64,000 nucleotides of DNA from Pedobacter indicus (GTDB taxonomy: Bacteria; Bacteroidota; Bacteroidia; Sphingobacteriales; Sphingobacteriaceae), in contig NZ_QRGB01000001.1 of assembly GCF_003449035.1 (NCBI RefSeq), positions 2,976,001 to 3,040,000 on the forward strand. The letters are read 5' to 3'. Below the pieces are notes generated by a model. It had not been told where the DNA came from. It ran no database searches and saw only the letters and a list, made by a program, of their open reading frames with translations. The position numbers and the translations under genes are program-made. Positions 7,187 through 64,000 of this stretch are shown one piece after another (the stretch's first letter is position 1; each line of letters starts with the position of its first letter).

Positions 7187-8497
7187 CTAACTTATTTTCG
7201 TTACTCCGGGAACCGCAATAGGGGGCATATCAATCTTCAGATCCCATGTATAGCTAGCGACATCAGGTCCTAATGATTTAGGCGAATTCAGTGCTTCTTC
7301 AAAAGTAATACGCTGACCGGTATAAGCAACCATGCGACCCCAGATAGCTAAGAGTGTGCTGTTGGCCATGTAGTCTCCGTCATGAATAGGCCTCCCGCTA
7401 CGAATGGAAGCGAAAAGCTCATCGTGCTGAGTCTGATACATGTTATTTTTCTGACCAGAAAACTTCCAGGGTTTCTGACCTTTAATTTCATATTGACTTC
7501 CGATATTAACGATAGCATTTCCTGCTGTTCCCATTACGTCGACACTGTTCCGATTGGTTGTACCCGCTTGCTGTCTTGTAAAGTGATAGCCTTTTGCTCC
7601 ATCTTTATATTCAAACTCGACGGCAAAATGATCATAGATGTTACCATATTGGGGATCAACACGAACTTGACGACCTCCAGTACCCATTGCGCTCACTGGC
7701 ATGACGTCTCCCATGGCCCATGACATCATATCTAAACTATGAACAGCCTGCTCCACAATGAAATCACCGGATAGCCAGTTATAGTAATACCAATTTCTCA
7801 TTTGGTAAGTCATCTCCGTCCAATCCTCTTCACGAGGGAAATACCAAACTTCACCTCCGTTACGGAATGTTGTAATAGCTTTAATACCCCCCACATCACC
7901 TTCTAATACTTTTGTGAATGTTGCTCGGTTGGGGTTGTCATAGCGAAAACAGAAACCAGATACCAGCGATAAATTTTTCTCTTTTGCTTTCTTCGATAGT
8001 TCAATCACTTTTCTTACCCCCGGTGCATCGACGGCAACCGGTTTCTCGCAAAAAATATGCTTCCCGGCTTCGACAGCTGCTTCCAGATGTAACGGTCTAA
8101 AACCCGGAGGAGCTGTCAACAAAACGACATCAACTCCTGAATCAATAACCTTCTGATAAGCGTCAAAGCCTATAAACCTATTTTTCTTATCAACTTTAAG
8201 TTGCTTCGGATTTATTTTTTCCAAAGATGAATAGGCTCCTTCTAACCTATCAGGGAATACATCACCCATGGCCGTGAGCTCGACATTTGGGTCAGCCTTC
8301 ATCGCTTGAGCTGCGGCACCCGTGCCTCGACCTCCACAACCAATTAATCCAACCTTGATTATAGATTTTTGTCCAGCAAATACAGATGAAGCCGCTAAAG
8401 GACTAGCTAACGAACTTGCTAAAAGGACTAAGCCTGAGTTCTTGAGAAAGGATCTTCTGCTAGAATTAATAAAAAGGTTCTTCTTGTTGTCATGCAT
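7187..8497 (-). CDS. Tat-exported Gfo/Idh/MocA-family oxidoreductase
   Basis: A 436-residue protein with a twin-arginine signal (SRRSFLK at 13-19, hydrophobic stretch to about 41), a Rossmann motif VGLIGCGGRGTG (about 49-60) and the family motif EKPVAVD (151-157). The C-terminal half has the conserved region for substrate binding (WYYYNWLSGDFIVEQAVHSLD). Export through Tat fits a cofactor-loaded folded enzyme working in the periplasm. Together with the next gene, DUF1080, it suggests oxidation of a glycoside at C3 followed by cleavage. A palindrome resembling a LacI-family operator lies just upstream. Confidence 0.9.
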   Translation of the reverse strand: MHDNKKNLFINSSRRSFLKNSGLVLLASSLASPLAASSVFAGQKSIIKVGLIGCGGRGTGAAAQAMKADPNVELTAMGDVFPDRLEGAYSSLEKINPKQLKVDKKNRFIGFDAYQKVIDSGVDVVLLTAPPGFRPLHLEAAVEAGKHIFCEKPVAVDAPGVRKVIELSKKAKEKNLSLVSGFCFRYDNPNRATFTKVLEGDVGGIKAITTFRNGGEVWYFPREEDWTEMTYQMRNWYYYNWLSGDFIVEQAVHSLDMMSWAMGDVMPVSAMGTGGRQVRVDPQYGNIYDHFAVEFEYKDGAKGYHFTRQQAGTTNRNSVDVMGTAGNAIVNIGSQYEIKGQKPWKFSGQKNNMYQTQHDELFASIRSGRPIHDGDYMANSTLLAIWGRMVAYTGQRITFEEALNSPKSLGPDVASYTWDLKIDMPPIAVPGVTKIS

Positions 8498-8518
8498 GTT
8501 ATGTCACAATTTATGTTT

Positions 8519-8528
8519 ACGTTAACGT
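8519..8528. promoter_or_regulatory. ACGTTAACGT palindrome, possible LacI-family operator
   Basis: A perfect 10-bp palindrome centred 26 bases upstream of the Gfo/Idh start codon, in a TTTACGTTAACGTGG context. LacI-family regulators of sugar genes bind short palindromes with a central CG-rich or TTAA core of this sort. A -7-like box for the same gene (CAAACTTA on this strand, 8574-8581) lies further upstream, which would place the palindrome in the 5' leader. No regulator gene is nearby. Confidence 0.35.
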
Positions 8529-8612
8529 GGCTAATAAATTCGCCTTTAAGATAAACGATTCTTGGTAAAGTATCAAACTTACCTGACAATAATTCGTGCC
8601 TGACGGTAATTT

Positions 8613-10013
8613 TTAGACCCTCACTGCTTTTACTGCAGCTGCATCAAGCATAAAATTATGTAGATCGGTATTCTTTACAAACTGAGGAAGTTGTTCTGCT
8701 CCCGGGCCATACATGGTTAACTCCACAAAATCTGAAGAATGTCCGGTTGACCCGAATGCAACACCCGTATATTTTGAAGCTATCCTTGCAAAAACATCAA
8801 CTGGAACTCCTTTAGACTCTGAACCTTGATAATATCTCAATATTTGCTGCGCTTCATCCTGACTCAATGTGAAGCCTTGAGCTGCATTGACTAAATCAAT
8901 CAGTTTCGATCTATTAAAAGACGCATCCAATTGATTGAGAATCCAGTTATTACTCTGTTTAACTGTTTGCAATAACTCAAATTTCTTATCACTTGAGAAT
9001 AGTCCCGGATTAGCATTACCATGGTCGGTAGTAATAATAACCAACGTTTCACCATCTTTTTCTGCAAAATCAATTGCTTCTTTAATCGCTTCATCAAAAG
9101 CGATTTGCTCATAAATCAATGCAGCTGCATCATTGGAGTGAGCCGCCCAGTCGACTGCCCCACCCTCTATTTGCATAACAAAACCTTTATTATTTTGCTT
9201 CAAGCGGTTAATAGCTATTTTAGTCATTTCCGCCAAGGTTGGAATCCGGTTCTGAAGTTCAGTACTTGATTGAACATCTACTACATATGGCAAACCGTCT
9301 TTATGAAAAACCCCTAAAATTGGTTTCGTATCCGAAGATGAAAGGCTCTGAAGCTCTTTTTTATTTTTTACTACTGAATATCCTTTTTGTGAAAACTTCC
9401 GAAAAAGATCAACCCGATCTTTACGGTCTTCTGCGCTGAAAAACTCCGACCCCGCACCCATCATCACATCAAACTCAAGCTTCAGGTACTCTTCGGCTAT
9501 GATTGATTGATCACCTCGACTAGCGACATTGACACAAAAGCCAGCAGGAGTAGCATGTGTAATGGGTACGCTGGTGACGCATCCAACTGATTTACCAGCT
9601 TCTTTAAACTTTTGCAATATAGGCTTATTGAAAGACCCATCTGGATTAACATTTAAAGCACCGTTATTAACACGAACGCCTCCGCCCCAAGAAGAGCTCC
9701 CGGCAGCAGAATCGGTAACTAATGCATTGGCAGAAGCGGTGTCCATTAACGCTCGTGTTGCTGTTCCCTTATTGTAAAGAGACATCCAGGTGGATTGGCG
9801 GCCCTCTTTTCGTTGAAGCATCAGGTCGGCTAACGTGAGTGTTCCGGTACTCATTCCATCGCTTACCATGAAGATAATATTCTTCGCTCGTTTACCTTGA
9901 TGAGGCAACGTTGGAAGTTGCTTCTGGCTTCCGGCTAATAAATCTAGAGGTGAGATTAAACTAGCACCTGCAGCAATCATGGATCCCTTCTTAAAAAAGG
10001 CTCTTCTTTTCAT
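8613..10013 (-). CDS. Alkaline phosphatase, Tat-like signal
   Basis: A 466-residue alkaline phosphatase. The N-terminus (KRRAFFKKG, then a hydrophobic stretch to LLAG) looks like a twin-arginine signal for export to the periplasm. Metal-site and catalytic motifs are present: VSDGMS (Asp-52), the nucleophile Ser-102 in LVTDSAAG, an MQIEGGAVDWAAHSND segment, ITTDHG, and a C-terminal GHSSD. It releases phosphate from organic esters. It is transcribed alone, 115 bases upstream of the Gfo/Idh gene on the same strand, so it could also feed into that transcript. Confidence 0.93.
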   Translation of the reverse strand: MKRRAFFKKGSMIAAGASLISPLDLLAGSQKQLPTLPHQGKRAKNIIFMVSDGMSTGTLTLADLMLQRKEGRQSTWMSLYNKGTATRALMDTASANALVTDSAAGSSSWGGGVRVNNGALNVNPDGSFNKPILQKFKEAGKSVGCVTSVPITHATPAGFCVNVASRGDQSIIAEEYLKLEFDVMMGAGSEFFSAEDRKDRVDLFRKFSQKGYSVVKNKKELQSLSSSDTKPILGVFHKDGLPYVVDVQSSTELQNRIPTLAEMTKIAINRLKQNNKGFVMQIEGGAVDWAAHSNDAAALIYEQIAFDEAIKEAIDFAEKDGETLVIITTDHGNANPGLFSSDKKFELLQTVKQSNNWILNQLDASFNRSKLIDLVNAAQGFTLSQDEAQQILRYYQGSESKGVPVDVFARIASKYTGVAFGSTGHSSDFVELTMYGPGAEQLPQFVKNTDLHNFMLDAAAVKAVRV

Positions 10014-52834: not shown

Positions 52835-53976
52835 TTACAACAAATCTTTTACAGCTACTACCGGCACATCTGCTCGCCCCGGCTGTGACAAAGGTTGATG
52901 ATTAGCAAAAGCATATCCTTCCTTGTCTGATATATCCCACAACATTGGCTTCAAAAAACTAATAGCAGCTACATAACCCTGTGATATAGCCGCTAAGTTC
53001 GCCGTCTCTTTTGAATTTTTAGCTTCATTTTCAATCTCGAACGGCCCATCAAAACCTTTTTTCGTCAGCAGATCTACAAAGGCCCTCCAGTCCATGCTGT
53101 CCGAGCCCCCAAAACCCGGCAACATAGCTTCATAGTGATGACGATCCCAACTATGCTGAGGTACAGCCACATCCGCCTTCTTTGCCAGATCAGCATTGAC
53201 TAATTGCATAGGATACATCCCCCCCAATCGATTCTTGCTTTCGTTTTCAGGTTTCTCGTTGTTTTCACGTGGATTCGATGAATCCTTTCAATATCACTTG
53301 CTTTAATGACATCTACCGGATCCGTATTCTGCCACACATCGTGCGAAGGGTCGTAGATTTCGCCATGGGCTTTACTCGGAATCATCGCGTACATTAACTT
53401 TCTGGCAGCCAGCACTCCCGGAAGATTATTAAAAGTATTTGTATAACCAGCCTCACGCCATCCCTCCATCGGACAGTTCTCATATACCACGGTTACCCCC
53501 AGGTCCTCTGCGTACTTAATGATCGGATTAAAAACCCGGTAATATTCATCCAGGTTCTTCTGAAAACCATTCTCCTGATTGCCCAGTTCATGATTATAAC
53601 CCACAAAAGCTCCAACCTTCACGTTGTTCTCATCCCCACCGAGCAGATGGGCTATACGGATCAGTTTAAGCAAATGGTTTTGGTTTTTTACACGCTCCGC
53701 TTCATCCCCTCCGATCATGTTTTCGAAAGCCCCTAAAGACAGCCCTAGCTTATTTTGGTTGAATGTATCGATGAGCTTCTTCGCATCCTCCGTCCCGAAA
53801 CCCTCATACTCCAAATGTGTAGCCGTATGATCCTCTCTCGTCCCGTCCTTTCTAAAAACACACAGATCAATCCCCTGAGCACCCACCTCCAAAGTCTTCG
53901 CAATCAACTGCTCTAAATTTAACTGATCAAAAGCCGAGCTCATAACCCAAATCGGATTATTAAGTTTTTTCTTCAT
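52835..53976 (-). pseudogene. Sugar phosphate isomerase/epimerase split by a frameshift in a G7 tract
   Basis: Two overlapping frames together encode a TIM-barrel isomerase/epimerase of about 377 residues. The first (53976 down to the tract) contains the ligand Glu in VVYENCPMEGW and YDPSHDVW, and reads ARIDWGG before running out of frame. The second resumes with MYPMQLVNADLAKK and contains the final metal-ligand region FEIENEA. The break falls at seven Gs (C7 at 53219-53225 on this strand); eight Gs would restore one frame. As read, the first product lacks the C-terminal ligand and would be inactive. A sequencing error in the homopolymer is the main alternative. Confidence 0.8.
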
Positions 53977-58391: not shown

Positions 58392-59585
58392 ATGCCAGAA
58401 ATTTCGAAAAAAGGCATCGCCATGCCTGCTTCACCTATTCGGAAGCTTACCCCCTTTGCCGATTTGGCAAAGAAAAATGGCAAAAAAATATATCATCTAA
58501 ACATTGGCCAACCTGATATCGCTACACCCGATATTATGCTCGATGCGGTTAAGAACATCGATTTTAAAGTATGGGCTTATACCGCTTCCGAAGGCACTGA
58601 ATCCTACCGGGACAAACTCAGTGAATATTACAATCATTTAGGTTACGGAGTCAGCAGTACGGATATCCTGGTTACCAATGGAGGGTCGGAAGCGATTACC
58701 TTCGCCATGCAATCTTGCCTGAGCCAAGGTGATGAAATCATCATTCCCGAGCCTTTCTATGCTAACTATAACGGCTTTGCCTGTATGGCTGATGTTGTTA
58801 TCAGGCCTATTCTTTCTACGATCGAGAATGGTTTCGCTTTGCCACCTATTTCTGAATTCGAGAAGTCTATCAACGCAAAAACCAAAGCCATCTTTATTTG
58901 CAATCCCAATAACCCGACGGGCTATCTCTATTCCAGAGAAGAATTGGAAATCCTGCGTGACCTCTGTTTAAAATACAACCTCTACCTGTTCTCTGACGAG
59001 GCCTACCGCGAGTTCTGCTACGATGGACGTGAGTTTGTATCGCCGATGCATTTGGAAGGATTAGAAGAAAACGTTGTTGTATTAGACACTGTTTCCAAAC
59101 GTTATAGTGCCTGTGGCGCCCGTCTGGGGTGCTTGATCACCAAAAATCAGAAAGTCTACCAAGCTGCGCTTAAATTCGCACAAGCCAGACTTAGTCCGCC
59201 AATGGTAGCTCAGATAGCAGGCGAGGCCGCAGTAGACACTCCCGCAAGTTATTTCCAAGAAGTTAAAGAAGAATACACCCAGCGTCGCAACCTGCTGGCT
59301 GACGGTCTCAACAGCATTCCCGGCGTCAAATGCCCCATTCCTGGTGGTGCTTTCTATATCGTAGCTCAACTACCGATAGATGATGCCGATAAGTTCTGCC
59401 AATGGATGCTGGAGAAATTTGATTATAACAACCAAACCGTTATGATGGCACCAGCTACCGGCTTCTACAGCAGTGATGGTGAAGGAAAAAACGAAGTCCG
59501 TTTAGCTTACGTATTGAATCAAGACGACTTAAAGAAAGCTCTTATTTGCCTTGAAAAAGGACTGGAAGTCTATAATTCACAATAG
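58392..59585 (+). CDS. Class I/II PLP-dependent aminotransferase
   Basis: A 397-residue fold-type I aminotransferase similar to aspartate aminotransferases. YHLNIGQPDIATPDIM at the N-terminus, FICNPNNPTGYLYSREEL, the Asp in LFSDEAYREF, and the PLP Lys in DTVSKRYSACGARLG are all seen. The substrate is not certain. It ends before a terminator-like double hairpin, so it is probably not part of the biosynthetic cluster that follows, although an amino-acid role there cannot be excluded. Confidence 0.92.
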   Translation: MPEISKKGIAMPASPIRKLTPFADLAKKNGKKIYHLNIGQPDIATPDIMLDAVKNIDFKVWAYTASEGTESYRDKLSEYYNHLGYGVSSTDILVTNGGSEAITFAMQSCLSQGDEIIIPEPFYANYNGFACMADVVIRPILSTIENGFALPPISEFEKSINAKTKAIFICNPNNPTGYLYSREELEILRDLCLKYNLYLFSDEAYREFCYDGREFVSPMHLEGLEENVVVLDTVSKRYSACGARLGCLITKNQKVYQAALKFAQARLSPPMVAQIAGEAAVDTPASYFQEVKEEYTQRRNLLADGLNSIPGVKCPIPGGAFYIVAQLPIDDADKFCQWMLEKFDYNNQTVMMAPATGFYSSDGEGKNEVRLAYVLNQDDLKKALICLEKGLEVYNSQ

Positions 59586-59727: not shown

Positions 59728-62700
59728 ATGGGTAATAGTACATATCAAACCAAGACCATTGTCGACTTATTCAAAGAACAAGTTGACCGAACGCCTAATC
59801 ATATTGCTGTCGAATTCAACAATGAAAGCCTAAGCTATCGCGAACTCGATGAAAAATCAAATCAATTAGCACATTATTTACAATCTGCTGGCGTCGGCGA
59901 AGAAACCCTTGTACCCATCTGCTTAAACCGCTCGATGGACATGATCATCGGCGCTTTGGGTATCCTAAAAACTGGTGGAGCCTATGTCCCTATTGACCCT
60001 GATTATCCGATTGACCGCATCCTCTATACCATAGAAGATACACAGGCCACAGTCGTTATTACCGAAAGTGGCACCATCTTGTCTAACACGGAAATAAAAA
60101 ACGCGAAAACCATCTTACTCGATCAGGAACAGAGCGCAATCAAAAAACAAGAAAAAAGTTCCCCCGAAATCACCGTCAAGCCCGAAAACCTTTGTTATAT
60201 CATTTATACATCTGGCTCAACAGGGCGACCTAAAGGGGTGATGATTGAGCACAGGAACGTAGTTAGGCTCTTTTTCAATGATTCGCCTTTATTTGACTTT
60301 AATGAGAATGATATTTGGACCATGTTCCATTCATTCTGTTTTGATTTTTCGGTATGGGAGATGTATGGTGCATTACTTTTCGGGGGCAAAGTAATCGTAA
60401 TTCCTAAAAATACGGCTCAAGACAGCGCTGCTTACGCAGAACTTTTGGAGATAAAGAATGTCACCGTTCTTAACCAAACACCGTCAGCTTTCTATCTTCT
60501 CCAAGAACATATTTTAGATAGAAAACCCAATTTGAACATACGCTTCATCATATTCGGTGGGGAGGCACTCAATCCCAGCAAACTAAAACAATGGAAAGAA
60601 ACGTATCCAAAATGTAAATTAATTAACATGTACGGCATCACCGAAACGACTGTACATGTTACTTATCAAGAAATAAGTCAAGAGCATTGCGAAAGCAGTA
60701 AGAGCGTTATCGGCAAACCTATTCCAACCCTATACACCTACATCTTAGATGAAAATCAAAAACAAGTTCCTTATGGAGTTGAAGGAGAACTTTATGTCGG
60801 TGGCGCCGGATTAGCGCGTGGTTATCTTAACATGCCCGACCTGACTTCCGAGCGCTTTATCCTTGATCATCTCGGCTCGGAACCTTCAGCAAGGCTTTAT
60901 CGAACAGGTGACTTAGCTAAAATGCATGAAAATAAAGAATTAGAATATCTAGGAAGAATCGATGATCAAGTCAAAATACGCGGATTTAGAATCGAACTTG
61001 CTGAGATCGAATCTGTTCTTCTCGAAATACCGACAATAAACCAGGCTATTGTTCTTGCCAATGAAGATCAGGCTGGCAACAAACGACTAGTCGCATATTT
61101 GGTGACAGAAGAACAGCTAGAAAACGATACAATTACCAATCATTTAGCTACTAAACTCCCCAGCTATATGATTCCTCAACTATTCGTTCCTATCGAAAGC
61201 ATACCGCTTACATCAAACGGCAAGGTCGACAAAAAAAACCTGCCAAATCCGGATGCATCAGATTTAATCAAAACGCTGTTTGTGGCCTCCCGAAACGAGC
61301 TAGAACAAACGTTGGTGGCACTTATTAAAAACGTCCTTCAAGTCAACCGGGTTGGTATTGACGATAACTTCTTTGAATTGGGAGGGAATTCCTTATTAGC
61401 ACAAAAAGTGATCTCCAACTTATCGGAAATAAACGTCAAGCTGCCAATCACAAAAATTTATCAATATCCCACCGTCCGAAAACTTGCCGGTGAGCTCCAG
61501 AGAGACGAAAAAACAACACACACGAAACGGAAACCCAGACCGGCCCAGCAATCAGACGTCGCCGTTATAGGTATGGCTGGACGCTTTCCTGGAGCCAGTA
61601 CCATCAACGAACTCTGGCAGAATTTGAGGTACGGAAAGGAAAGCATTACATTCTTTTCAAAGGAGGAACTAGACCATTCTCTTCCGCAATCTCTGATAGA
61701 AGACGCTGACTACGTAGCCGCACGTGGCGTTATTTCCGATGCGAAGGTTTTTGACGCAAATTTCTTTGAAATCAACACCAAAATCGCGGAGGTGTTAGAT
61801 CCTCAACACCGAAAGTTCCTTGAAATCTCATGGGAGGCGTTGGAGCAGGCAGGCTACGCATCCTGTGCCGGAGAATCGATCGGCGTTTATGCAGGATCAA
61901 GCAGCAATACCTATTTCAATAACAATATCTATCCAAACAAAGATCTTATGGCGCGGGTTGGAGACTTCCAAGTTCTTACCTTGAGCGACAAAGACTTTCT
62001 CGCTACCCGGGTCGCTTATTGCCTCGATTTGAAAGGGCCAGCAGTCACCATACAGTCCGCCTGCTCAACTTCCCTCCTCGCTATCGCTGAAGCCGTAAAA
62101 AGCATTAGAACCGGACAGTGCGACCTTGCTTTAGCTGGCGGAGTCGCCATCAATGTGCCGATCAATACCGGGCATTTATATGAAGAAGGTTCCATACTTA
62201 GCTCCGATGGGCACTGCCGTACATTCGATGCAGATGCTAAAGGTACCGTCTTTAGCGATGGAGCAGCCGTTGTACTTTTAAAAGATTTGAAACAGGCAGA
62301 AGAAGATGGGGATACCATTTATGGTGTGATCAAAGGAATCGGCATCAATAACGACGGTGGCGGTAAAGGAAGCTTTACGGCGCCAAGCTCTGAAGGCCAA
62401 GCAACAAGTATCATGAATGCACTAGAAGATGCTCAAGTTGACCCAGCAAGTATCTCTTATGTTGAAGCCCATGGAACCGCTACACCGATCGGCGACCCAA
62501 TTGAAATCGAAGGGCTGAACATTGCTTTTGGAGAACAAGAGAAGAAACAATATTGTGCCCTCGGTTCTATTAAGAGTAATATGGGACATTTAACTCAAGC
62601 AGCTGGTGCTGCAGGTTTCATCAAAACTGTTCTCTCGCTTCACCATCAGGAACTACCACCGTCTATCAACTTCAGCAAACCCAACCCACATCTGAATCTC

Positions 62701-64000
62701 GAAGAAAGTCCTTTTTATGTAAACGATCAATTATCCAAGTGGGAATCTGACGGCATCAGACGAGCCGGCGTCAGCTCCTTTGGTGTAGGCGGCACCAATG
62801 TCCATGTCATACTAGAAGAATACCAACAAACAGAAAAAGAAAGCTCGGCTGGTCGCCCGTATGAACTGTTAACTTGGTCCGCTAAATCCCAAGAGAGTGT
62901 TGATGCTTATGCAGAAAAACTCAAAGATCATATCCAAGAAAACTCAGATCTTAATTTGGCGGACGTAGCTTACAGTCTACAGACCAGCAAGGCGACCTTT
63001 AATAATCGTCGATTTGCAATTGCCTCAAACAATCAAGATTTAATCGAAAAGCTCAATCCTCTATTCCAGTCGGCCGATACTAAAAATTTAAAAGAGAAAC
63101 CCAGCAACCTCATATTTGTATTCCCAGGTCAGGGGGCTCAATACATCAATATGGGTAAAGAGCTGTACGCAAACGAAGCGATATTCAAAGAGGCTGTCGA
63201 CGAATGCGCCGAGTTATTGAAGTCCGAATTAGGAGAAGATATAAGGGACATCATCTTTACTGACAGTGAGAATAAACACAAAATTGATACGCTCAACAAT
63301 ACCTATTACACTCAACCCGCATTGTTCGTAAGCGAATATGCACTTGCTAAGCTTTGGATGTCACTAGGTGCAGAACCAAACTGGTATATCGGTCACAGCA
63401 TCGGCGAATTCGTAGCAGCCCATTTAGCCGACGTCTTCAGTTTAAAAGACGCATTGCACCTCATTGCCAATCGCGGTAAATTAATGAGCAGTCTGGCTGC
63501 CGGAAGCATGTTAGCGGTTCGTACAAACCATAAAAACATCGAAGGGTTCCTGCCGACTGAATTATCACTCGCCGCAATCAACAGCCAACATCTATGTGTA
63601 GTAGCAGGTCCATCAGAAGCTGTGCAGAAATTTATACACACACTCGGAGAAAACGAAATCGTATCTAAATTACTGCACACCAGCCATGCGTTCCACTCGT
63701 CGATGATGGATCAGATTGTTGAACCATTTGCTGAACTAACAAAATCTCTGACCTTAAATGTGCCACAAAAGCCCATTATCTCAACCGTTACCGGCACCTG
63801 GCTAAAAGACTCCGATGCAACCGACCCTATCTACTGGGCAAAGCATTTACGGTCAACTGTACGCTTCTCCGATGCCGTCCAAACAGCTTTAGAAGAAGAA
63901 CCCAACTCTTTGTTTATTGAAATAGGGCCGCGGAATGGTTCCACGACTTTAATTCGCCAACATATTGAAAAACAGAGCGCAACTGCTATTGCGGCACTTG
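59728..64000 (+). CDS. Hybrid NRPS-PKS megaenzyme, first module (A-PCP-KS-AT), 3' end beyond window
   Basis: Open from ATG 59728 through the window end (1,424 codons seen). An adenylation domain (~10-500) carries YTSGSTGRPKG (160-170), YRTGDL and GRIDDQVKIRGFR; its pocket residues Asp206, Phe207, Trp210, Asn249, Ile275, Gly277, Met301, Val309, His310, Lys499 read DFWNIGMVHK, the classical threonine code. A carrier domain has phosphopantetheine Ser-555 (LGGNSL). A ketosynthase (~609-1030) has Cys-779 (SACSTSL), His-915 and His-954. The acyltransferase (from ~1130) has Ser-1224 (GHSIGE) and HAFH (1320-1323), the malonyl-type motif. No condensation domain precedes the adenylation domain, so this is a chain-starting module that should load threonine and extend it with malonyl units. 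Later domains and partner genes are outside the window. Confidence 0.96.
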   Translation, partial: MGNSTYQTKTIVDLFKEQVDRTPNHIAVEFNNESLSYRELDEKSNQLAHYLQSAGVGEETLVPICLNRSMDMIIGALGILKTGGAYVPIDPDYPIDRILYTIEDTQATVVITESGTILSNTEIKNAKTILLDQEQSAIKKQEKSSPEITVKPENLCYIIYTSGSTGRPKGVMIEHRNVVRLFFNDSPLFDFNENDIWTMFHSFCFDFSVWEMYGALLFGGKVIVIPKNTAQDSAAYAELLEIKNVTVLNQTPSAFYLLQEHILDRKPNLNIRFIIFGGEALNPSKLKQWKETYPKCKLINMYGITETTVHVTYQEISQEHCESSKSVIGKPIPTLYTYILDENQKQVPYGVEGELYVGGAGLARGYLNMPDLTSERFILDHLGSEPSARLYRTGDLAKMHENKELEYLGRIDDQVKIRGFRIELAEIESVLLEIPTINQAIVLANEDQAGNKRLVAYLVTEEQLENDTITNHLATKLPSYMIPQLFVPIESIPLTSNGKVDKKNLPNPDASDLIKTLFVASRNELEQTLVALIKNVLQVNRVGIDDNFFELGGNSLLAQKVISNLSEINVKLPITKIYQYPTVRKLAGELQRDEKTTHTKRKPRPAQQSDVAVIGMAGRFPGASTINELWQNLRYGKESITFFSKEELDHSLPQSLIEDADYVAARGVISDAKVFDANFFEINTKIAEVLDPQHRKFLEISWEALEQAGYASCAGESIGVYAGSSSNTYFNNNIYPNKDLMARVGDFQVLTLSDKDFLATRVAYCLDLKGPAVTIQSACSTSLLAIAEAVKSIRTGQCDLALAGGVAINVPINTGHLYEEGSILSSDGHCRTFDADAKGTVFSDGAAVVLLKDLKQAEEDGDTIYGVIKGIGINNDGGGKGSFTAPSSEGQATSIMNALEDAQVDPASISYVEAHGTATPIGDPIEIEGLNIAFGEQEKKQYCALGSIKSNMGHLTQAAGAAGFIKTVLSLHHQELPPSINFSKPNPHLNLEESPFYVNDQLSKWESDGIRRAGVSSFGVGGTNVHVILEEYQQTEKESSAGRPYELLTWSAKSQESVDAYAEKLKDHIQENSDLNLADVAYSLQTSKATFNNRRFAIASNNQDLIEKLNPLFQSADTKNLKEKPSNLIFVFPGQGAQYINMGKELYANEAIFKEAVDECAELLKSELGEDIRDIIFTDSENKHKIDTLNNTYYTQPALFVSEYALAKLWMSLGAEPNWYIGHSIGEFVAAHLADVFSLKDALHLIANRGKLMSSLAAGSMLAVRTNHKNIEGFLPTELSLAAINSQHLCVVAGPSEAVQKFIHTLGENEIVSKLLHTSHAFHSSMMDQIVEPFAELTKSLTLNVPQKPIISTVTGTWLKDSDATDPIYWAKHLRSTVRFSDAVQTALEEEPNSLFIEIGPRNGSTTLIRQHIEKQSATAIAAL

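Follow-up and report, generated by a model that had tools for sequence, protein, structure and literature searches.

The window, i.e. the whole stretch of 64,000 nucleotides that was analysed (C1:2976001-3040000 of genome G000), ends inside a large gene. A single open reading frame begins at 59728 and is still open, after 1424 aa, where the window stops; in the genome stretch beyond the window it is completed to a protein of 2195 aa (gene 1, L003:728-7315). Because the window cuts the gene, the original prediction missed the rest of it. Coordinates past the window are given on L003 (C1:3035001-3055000) and L004 (the following 20 kb). The features are as follows.

59728..64000, onward to C1:3042315 (L003:7315), + strand: gene 1, hybrid NRPS-PKS starter protein, 5' 1424 of 2195 aa in the window (open frame, Pfam)
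59752..61242 (aa 9-505), + strand: adenylation domain A1 with a threonine-type code (Pfam PF00501/PF13193, code, nearest solved pocket regions)
61306..61491 (aa 527-588), + strand: peptidyl carrier domain PCP1, Ser within LGGNS (Pfam PF00550, motif)
61552..62673 (aa 609-982), + strand: ketosynthase, active Cys 779, both His motifs kept (Pfam PF00109/PF02801, motifs)
63112..64000, + strand: acyltransferase, malonyl-type, GHSIGE from aa 1222 and HAFH from aa 1320 (Pfam PF00698, motifs)
L003:7242-15788: gene 2 (start at 7326, directly after the gene 1 stop, is likelier)
L003:15904-16659: PPTase, after gene 2
L003:16684-18495: MsbA-like ABC exporter, after the PPTase

The Pfam spans in gene 1 are AMP-binding at aa 15-367, PP-binding at 527-588, ketoacyl-synt at 609-982 and Acyl_transf_1 at 1129-1447, and the matches of the A, KS and AT domains (E 1e-42 to 1e-94) are strong enough to exclude chance. 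The AT domain extends beyond the window by about 68 bases; GHSIGE and HAFH both lie inside the window. Past the AT, Pfam detects a second PP-binding domain (ACP, about aa 1538-1622) and a class III aminotransferase (AMT, about aa 1728-2152), the full order being A-PCP-KS-AT-ACP-aminotransferase, with no KR, DH or ER domain found by Pfam in gene 1. The KS Cys and His residues, the carrier Ser and the AT motifs are all intact, and a KS with the Cys-His-His set, an AT in the same protein and an ACP make up a cis-AT type I PKS module. Neither Pfam nor the genome search found a C domain in gene 1; the only two C domains detected by the profile search of the genome both sit in gene 2, and the N-terminal A-PCP with no C domain upstream is the arrangement of a chain-initiating loading module. 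The original prediction had proposed precisely a chain-initiating A-PCP-KS-AT without a C domain and, from GHSIGE and HAFH, a malonyl-type AT, and both proposals hold. Five ketoacyl-synthase matches occur in the genome, namely gene 1, two full-model matches in frames of about 440 aa (the length of FabF) and two short partial ones. The order of genes and domains, the intact catalytic residues, the codes and the family distribution presented here are direct observations.

At the GrsA positions, the pocket of A1, which keeps the Asp235 equivalent (aa 206, position 60343), reads DFWNIGMVHK and fits the threonine pattern DFWN(I/V)GMVHK; the same ten residues had been read as the textbook threonine code in the original prediction, and the assignment of threonine to A1 is well supported. 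Loading of 2-aminobutyrate, serine, allo-threonine or a larger beta-hydroxy amino acid by an otherwise identical assembly line is unlikely in our view, although the solved structures lend it some grounds: the best chains for the pocket region (L003:1328-1675, window 60328-60675) are, in this order, ObiF1, an A domain for a large beta-hydroxy amino acid, 5n9w, the threonine-specific Thr1 of the 4-chlorothreonine pathway, and CytC1, whose substrate is 2-aminobutyrate/valine. The ten-letter code itself could be compatible with allo-Thr, Abu or Ser as well. However, this code is the exact threonine one, 5n9w differs from A1 at one code position (by our reading of the alignment), and the only other homologues with the code of A1, two Parapedobacter proteins, own the A domains most similar to it (58% identity, the next six being at or below 46%). 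As to the chain built on the threonyl starter, the original prediction ended with 4-amino-5-hydroxy-3-oxohexanoyl. Such an intermediate would indeed be formed, but probably only transiently, to be turned into 3,4-diamino-5-hydroxyhexanoyl, since the same protein bears the ACP and a MycA-type aminotransferase that would exchange the 3-oxo group for a 3-amino one; this domain lies beyond the window. Among solved structures, the best matches of the AMT are those of mycosubtilin synthase subunit A (6kfu, 6kfm; E 1e-116), the runner-up being a free glutamate-1-semialdehyde aminomutase (E 1e-47). Its class III type, its place after the ACP, its proximity to MycA and its PLP lysine (K1975) are those of a MycA-type assembly-line aminotransferase, and we infer that it transaminates the beta-ketoacyl-ACP. 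The MycA domain puts an amino group into a polyketide intermediate with Gln as the donor (Aron et al., 2005, via PMC3870968). That the beta-keto chain is kept and handed unchanged to gene 2, the AMT being inactive or acting elsewhere, is consistent with the intact KS and AT and with the lack of a KR between AT and ACP, yet we regard it as highly improbable: the AMT is closely related to the MycA domain, which has been characterised, and retains the PLP lysine and the FDE motif, which are kept in 70/71 and 71/71 full-length homologues, respectively (the malonyl AT motif HAFH is present in 70/71). A point against the amination is that we know of no characterised precedent for an aminotransferase acting on a beta-keto chain that also bears a free 4-amino group.

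Gene 2 has the order C-A-methyltransferase-PCP-C-A-PCP-TE and keeps HHxxxDG in both C domains, ELGTGGG in the methyltransferase and GYSFGG in the TE. The methyltransferase is inserted between core motifs A8 and A10 of A2, the usual site of N-methyltransferases, and from this position of the domain we suppose that it probably performs N-methylation. With the lysine of NGKIDRK added to DITQITGIW, the A2 code becomes DITQITGIWK, the N given at the tenth position by the automatic alignment being due to the disturbance of the alignment by the inserted methyltransferase. Among solved pockets, that of A2 comes nearest to 4zxh (AB3403) and 5u89 (DhbF type), both glycine-type; the A2 code departs from the glycine consensus by T at 239 and I/T at 299/301, and the residue may be a small amino acid other than glycine. 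For A3, which reads DVQFMAQVVK, the pocket region is matched best by the first modules of GrsB and TycB (67 and 66 bits, the next match having 42), both of them proline modules.

Taken as a whole, the cluster would encode a three-residue hybrid line, and for all its substrates, steps, product structure and function we rely on sequence. A1 would activate L-Thr and load it onto PCP1; the KS would join threonyl-PCP with malonyl-ACP into 4-amino-5-hydroxy-3-oxohexanoyl-ACP, and the built-in AMT would convert the latter into 3,4-diamino-5-hydroxyhexanoyl-ACP. Gene 2 would then add a glycine-like residue (A2), probably N-methylated, and a proline-like residue (A3), after which the TE would free the product; the dedicated PPTase would prime the carriers, and the ABC exporter would probably export the product. 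By our arithmetic, the predicted product is about C14H26N4O5 with [M+H]+ of about 331.198 if hydrolysed, or 313.19 if cyclised. We estimate the probability of this reading (threonine plus malonate, 3-amination, N-methyl-Gly-like and Pro-like residues, TE release, and membership in a Bacteroidota-wide family with an exchanged starter) at about 0.72.

The arrangement is by no means confined to this genome. Near full-length homologues of the ACP-AMT region are present in 42 of the 201 genomes of Sphingobacteriaceae, the own genome included, mostly at 59-67% identity. When 84,980 species genomes were scanned, 191 relatives were confirmed, 80 of which were kept: these belong to Pedobacter, Parapedobacter, Mucilaginibacter, Hymenobacter, Spirosoma, Larkinella, Fibrella, Segetibacter, Flavobacterium, Maribacter and others, and to one Verrucomicrobiales MAG. 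Nearly all of them share A-PCP-KS-AT-ACP-AMT followed by C-A-(MT)-PCP-TE, and about 40 loci contain a PPTase. Our comparison set comprised 71 full-length proteins, nearly all from Bacteroidota, with starter codes that are proline-like (39), Asp/Asn-like (11), of the DAQF.GV type (6), for threonine (3), for serine (3) or others (9); the first A domain of the second protein is glycine-like in 44 of 68 cases. On the KS+AMT tree the starter class requires 13 changes or more, as against 4 on the A-domain tree, these counts being undated tree minima from quick FastTree runs. Since, in addition, A1 is nearest to the Parapedobacter threonine domains while the KS and AMT of gene 1 are closest to loci other than this pair, the trees indicate repeated replacement of the starter A domain on a constant KS-AT-ACP-AMT chassis. 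In Parapedobacter soli (L032:5117-18427), two AMT starter proteins stand in tandem, the code being that for threonine in one of them and that for serine in the other; this pair suggests a duplication and a later change of starter. About 10 related loci contain, upstream of the synthase, a JmjC/cupin-like hydroxylase (named by eye; for example L033:1838-2818), possibly a tailoring enzyme.

Among the closest known systems is the locus of Parapedobacter indicus (L028): it has a threonine starter code, an AMT protein and a two-module second protein, also with an embedded MT and a Pro-like last A domain. Its A1 is 58% identical to that of the window, whereas its second-module code is DALAQGVIA as opposed to DITQITGIW, and no ABC exporter was found in the stretch examined. 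The mycosubtilin/iturin synthases (MycA, ItuA) resemble gene 1 in KS-AT-ACP-AMT, with a GSAM-type aminotransferase at the PKS-NRPS junction; however, they come from another phylum, start from a fatty acyl group by means of an acyl ligase and make a 7-residue lipopeptide, while gene 1 is loaded by an amino-acid A-PCP. In place of the fatty acyl-AMP ligase that characterises the iturin family, gene 1 starts with an A domain for amino acids that retains Asp235. The zwittermicin and cylindrospermopsin starters likewise combine an A-PCP-loaded amino acid with extension by a cis-AT KS, but in those lines the ketone is reduced (KR) or other extenders are used, with no AMT after the amino-acid starter. 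In the table of Milano et al. (2013; PMC3870968), Pedobacter heparinus C6XWU5 is entered as A-CP-KS-AT-CP-PLP1 of the GSA group with the prediction Nrp-Mal-Gly-Pk and no product; it is like gene 1 in its published domain layout (A-CP-KS-AT-CP-PLP, GSA), the comparison being one of layouts and not of sequences. The prediction for C6XWU5 contains Gly and no second amino acid, in contrast to the two further residues and N-methylation predicted for the window cluster. Surveys of Pedobacter and Bacteroidetes count NRPS-PKS hybrids and place few clusters near MIBiG entries, and the passages of these surveys consulted here do not describe the present one. Our literature searches returned nothing specific on a product or on an AMT route to vicinal diamines for this type of synthase and no close characterised reference cluster. 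The earlier statement that the starter matches no known product therefore stands, but the arrangement itself is not rare, occurring in the 42 genomes mentioned and having been tabulated in 2013; the cluster starts with threonine and belongs to a common Bacteroidota family without a characterised product.

Within the genus, the genome G017 keeps the genes upstream of the cluster (a DUF1573-like gene and the class I aminotransferase gene, at 73-74% identity), and the homologue search found no synthase homologue in it; the cluster has therefore been gained or lost at this point. The upstream class I aminotransferase (58392-59585) was considered as a cluster member and rejected, being kept in G017, which lacks the synthase. 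Elsewhere in the window (52835-53976, - strand), a sugar-phosphate isomerase/epimerase-like gene (by eye) lies in two overlapping frames of 130 and 258 aa; one frame of G017 matches both pieces (90% and 67% identity), and a frameshift or an assembly error is therefore likely.

Directly downstream of the cluster lies an exopolysaccharide-type locus (L004:3-20000, C1:3055003-3075000). Genes 3' of the exporter are glycosyltransferases and UbiA-like, acyltransferase-3-like, Wzx-, Wzy- and Wzc-like genes, named by sequence similarity, with Pfam confirming UbiA only. Among the 62 loci that reach 18 kb, 34 contain at least one polysaccharide-gene homologue (E 1e-15). Two or more such genes occur in 10/20 downstream 20-kb stretches vs 1/40 control stretches of the same contigs, the Fisher p of about 2e-5 being too optimistic because the genomes are related; for upstream stretches the count is 3/19. 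Counted on both sides, 12/20 genomes have polysaccharide genes, but this count spans 40 kb and cannot fairly be set beside the 20-kb controls; the comparison used here is the downstream one. Loci with the linkage occur in Pedobacter, Parapedobacter, Mucilaginibacter, Segetibacter, Spirosoma and Fibrella. One might suppose, then, that the product, released or carrier-bound, decorates the neighbouring exopolysaccharide (as an amide on an amino sugar) or acts together with it instead of being a free metabolite, the abutting Wzx/Wzy/Wzc-like and glycosyltransferase genes and the excess over the controls speaking for it. We consider this quite improbable, however: gene 2 terminates in a canonical TE, no constant partner acting as an acyltransferase to sugar was identified, the fact that recombination hot spots are found at polysaccharide loci could by itself account for the linkage, and the related genomes are not independent. 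Nothing relevant to PKS/NRPS-made O-antigen acyl groups was returned by a literature search. Equally doubtful is the broader proposal that such lines throughout Bacteroidota make vicinal 3,4-diamino acids whose side chain can be exchanged, and that they belong to exopolysaccharide loci, the product being a surface decoration or partner and not a free antibiotic.

If the threonine-started, aminated three-residue line is the correct reading, vicinal diamino acids are made in many genomes by a route that varies by swapping the starter A domain only, and one method would therefore open a family of compounds without known identity. All genomic condensation domains lie within this synthase cluster in 18 of the 20 genomes examined, and its being the only NRPS there suggests that its ecological role is conserved. 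The polysaccharide linkage poses a testable question, namely whether the product is free or bound to the cell surface.

Two more features of the polysaccharide locus may be mentioned. A squalene-cyclase-like repeat protein (L004:655-2749, weak NCBIfam match) adjoins the UbiA prenyltransferase, with no homologues of either found near other family members. Further on (L004:7003-9508), a right-handed beta-helix-like surface protein seems to be interrupted by an IS3-like transposase pair (about 7572-8692, named by eye), which leaves pieces at L004:7003-7521 and 8711-9508.
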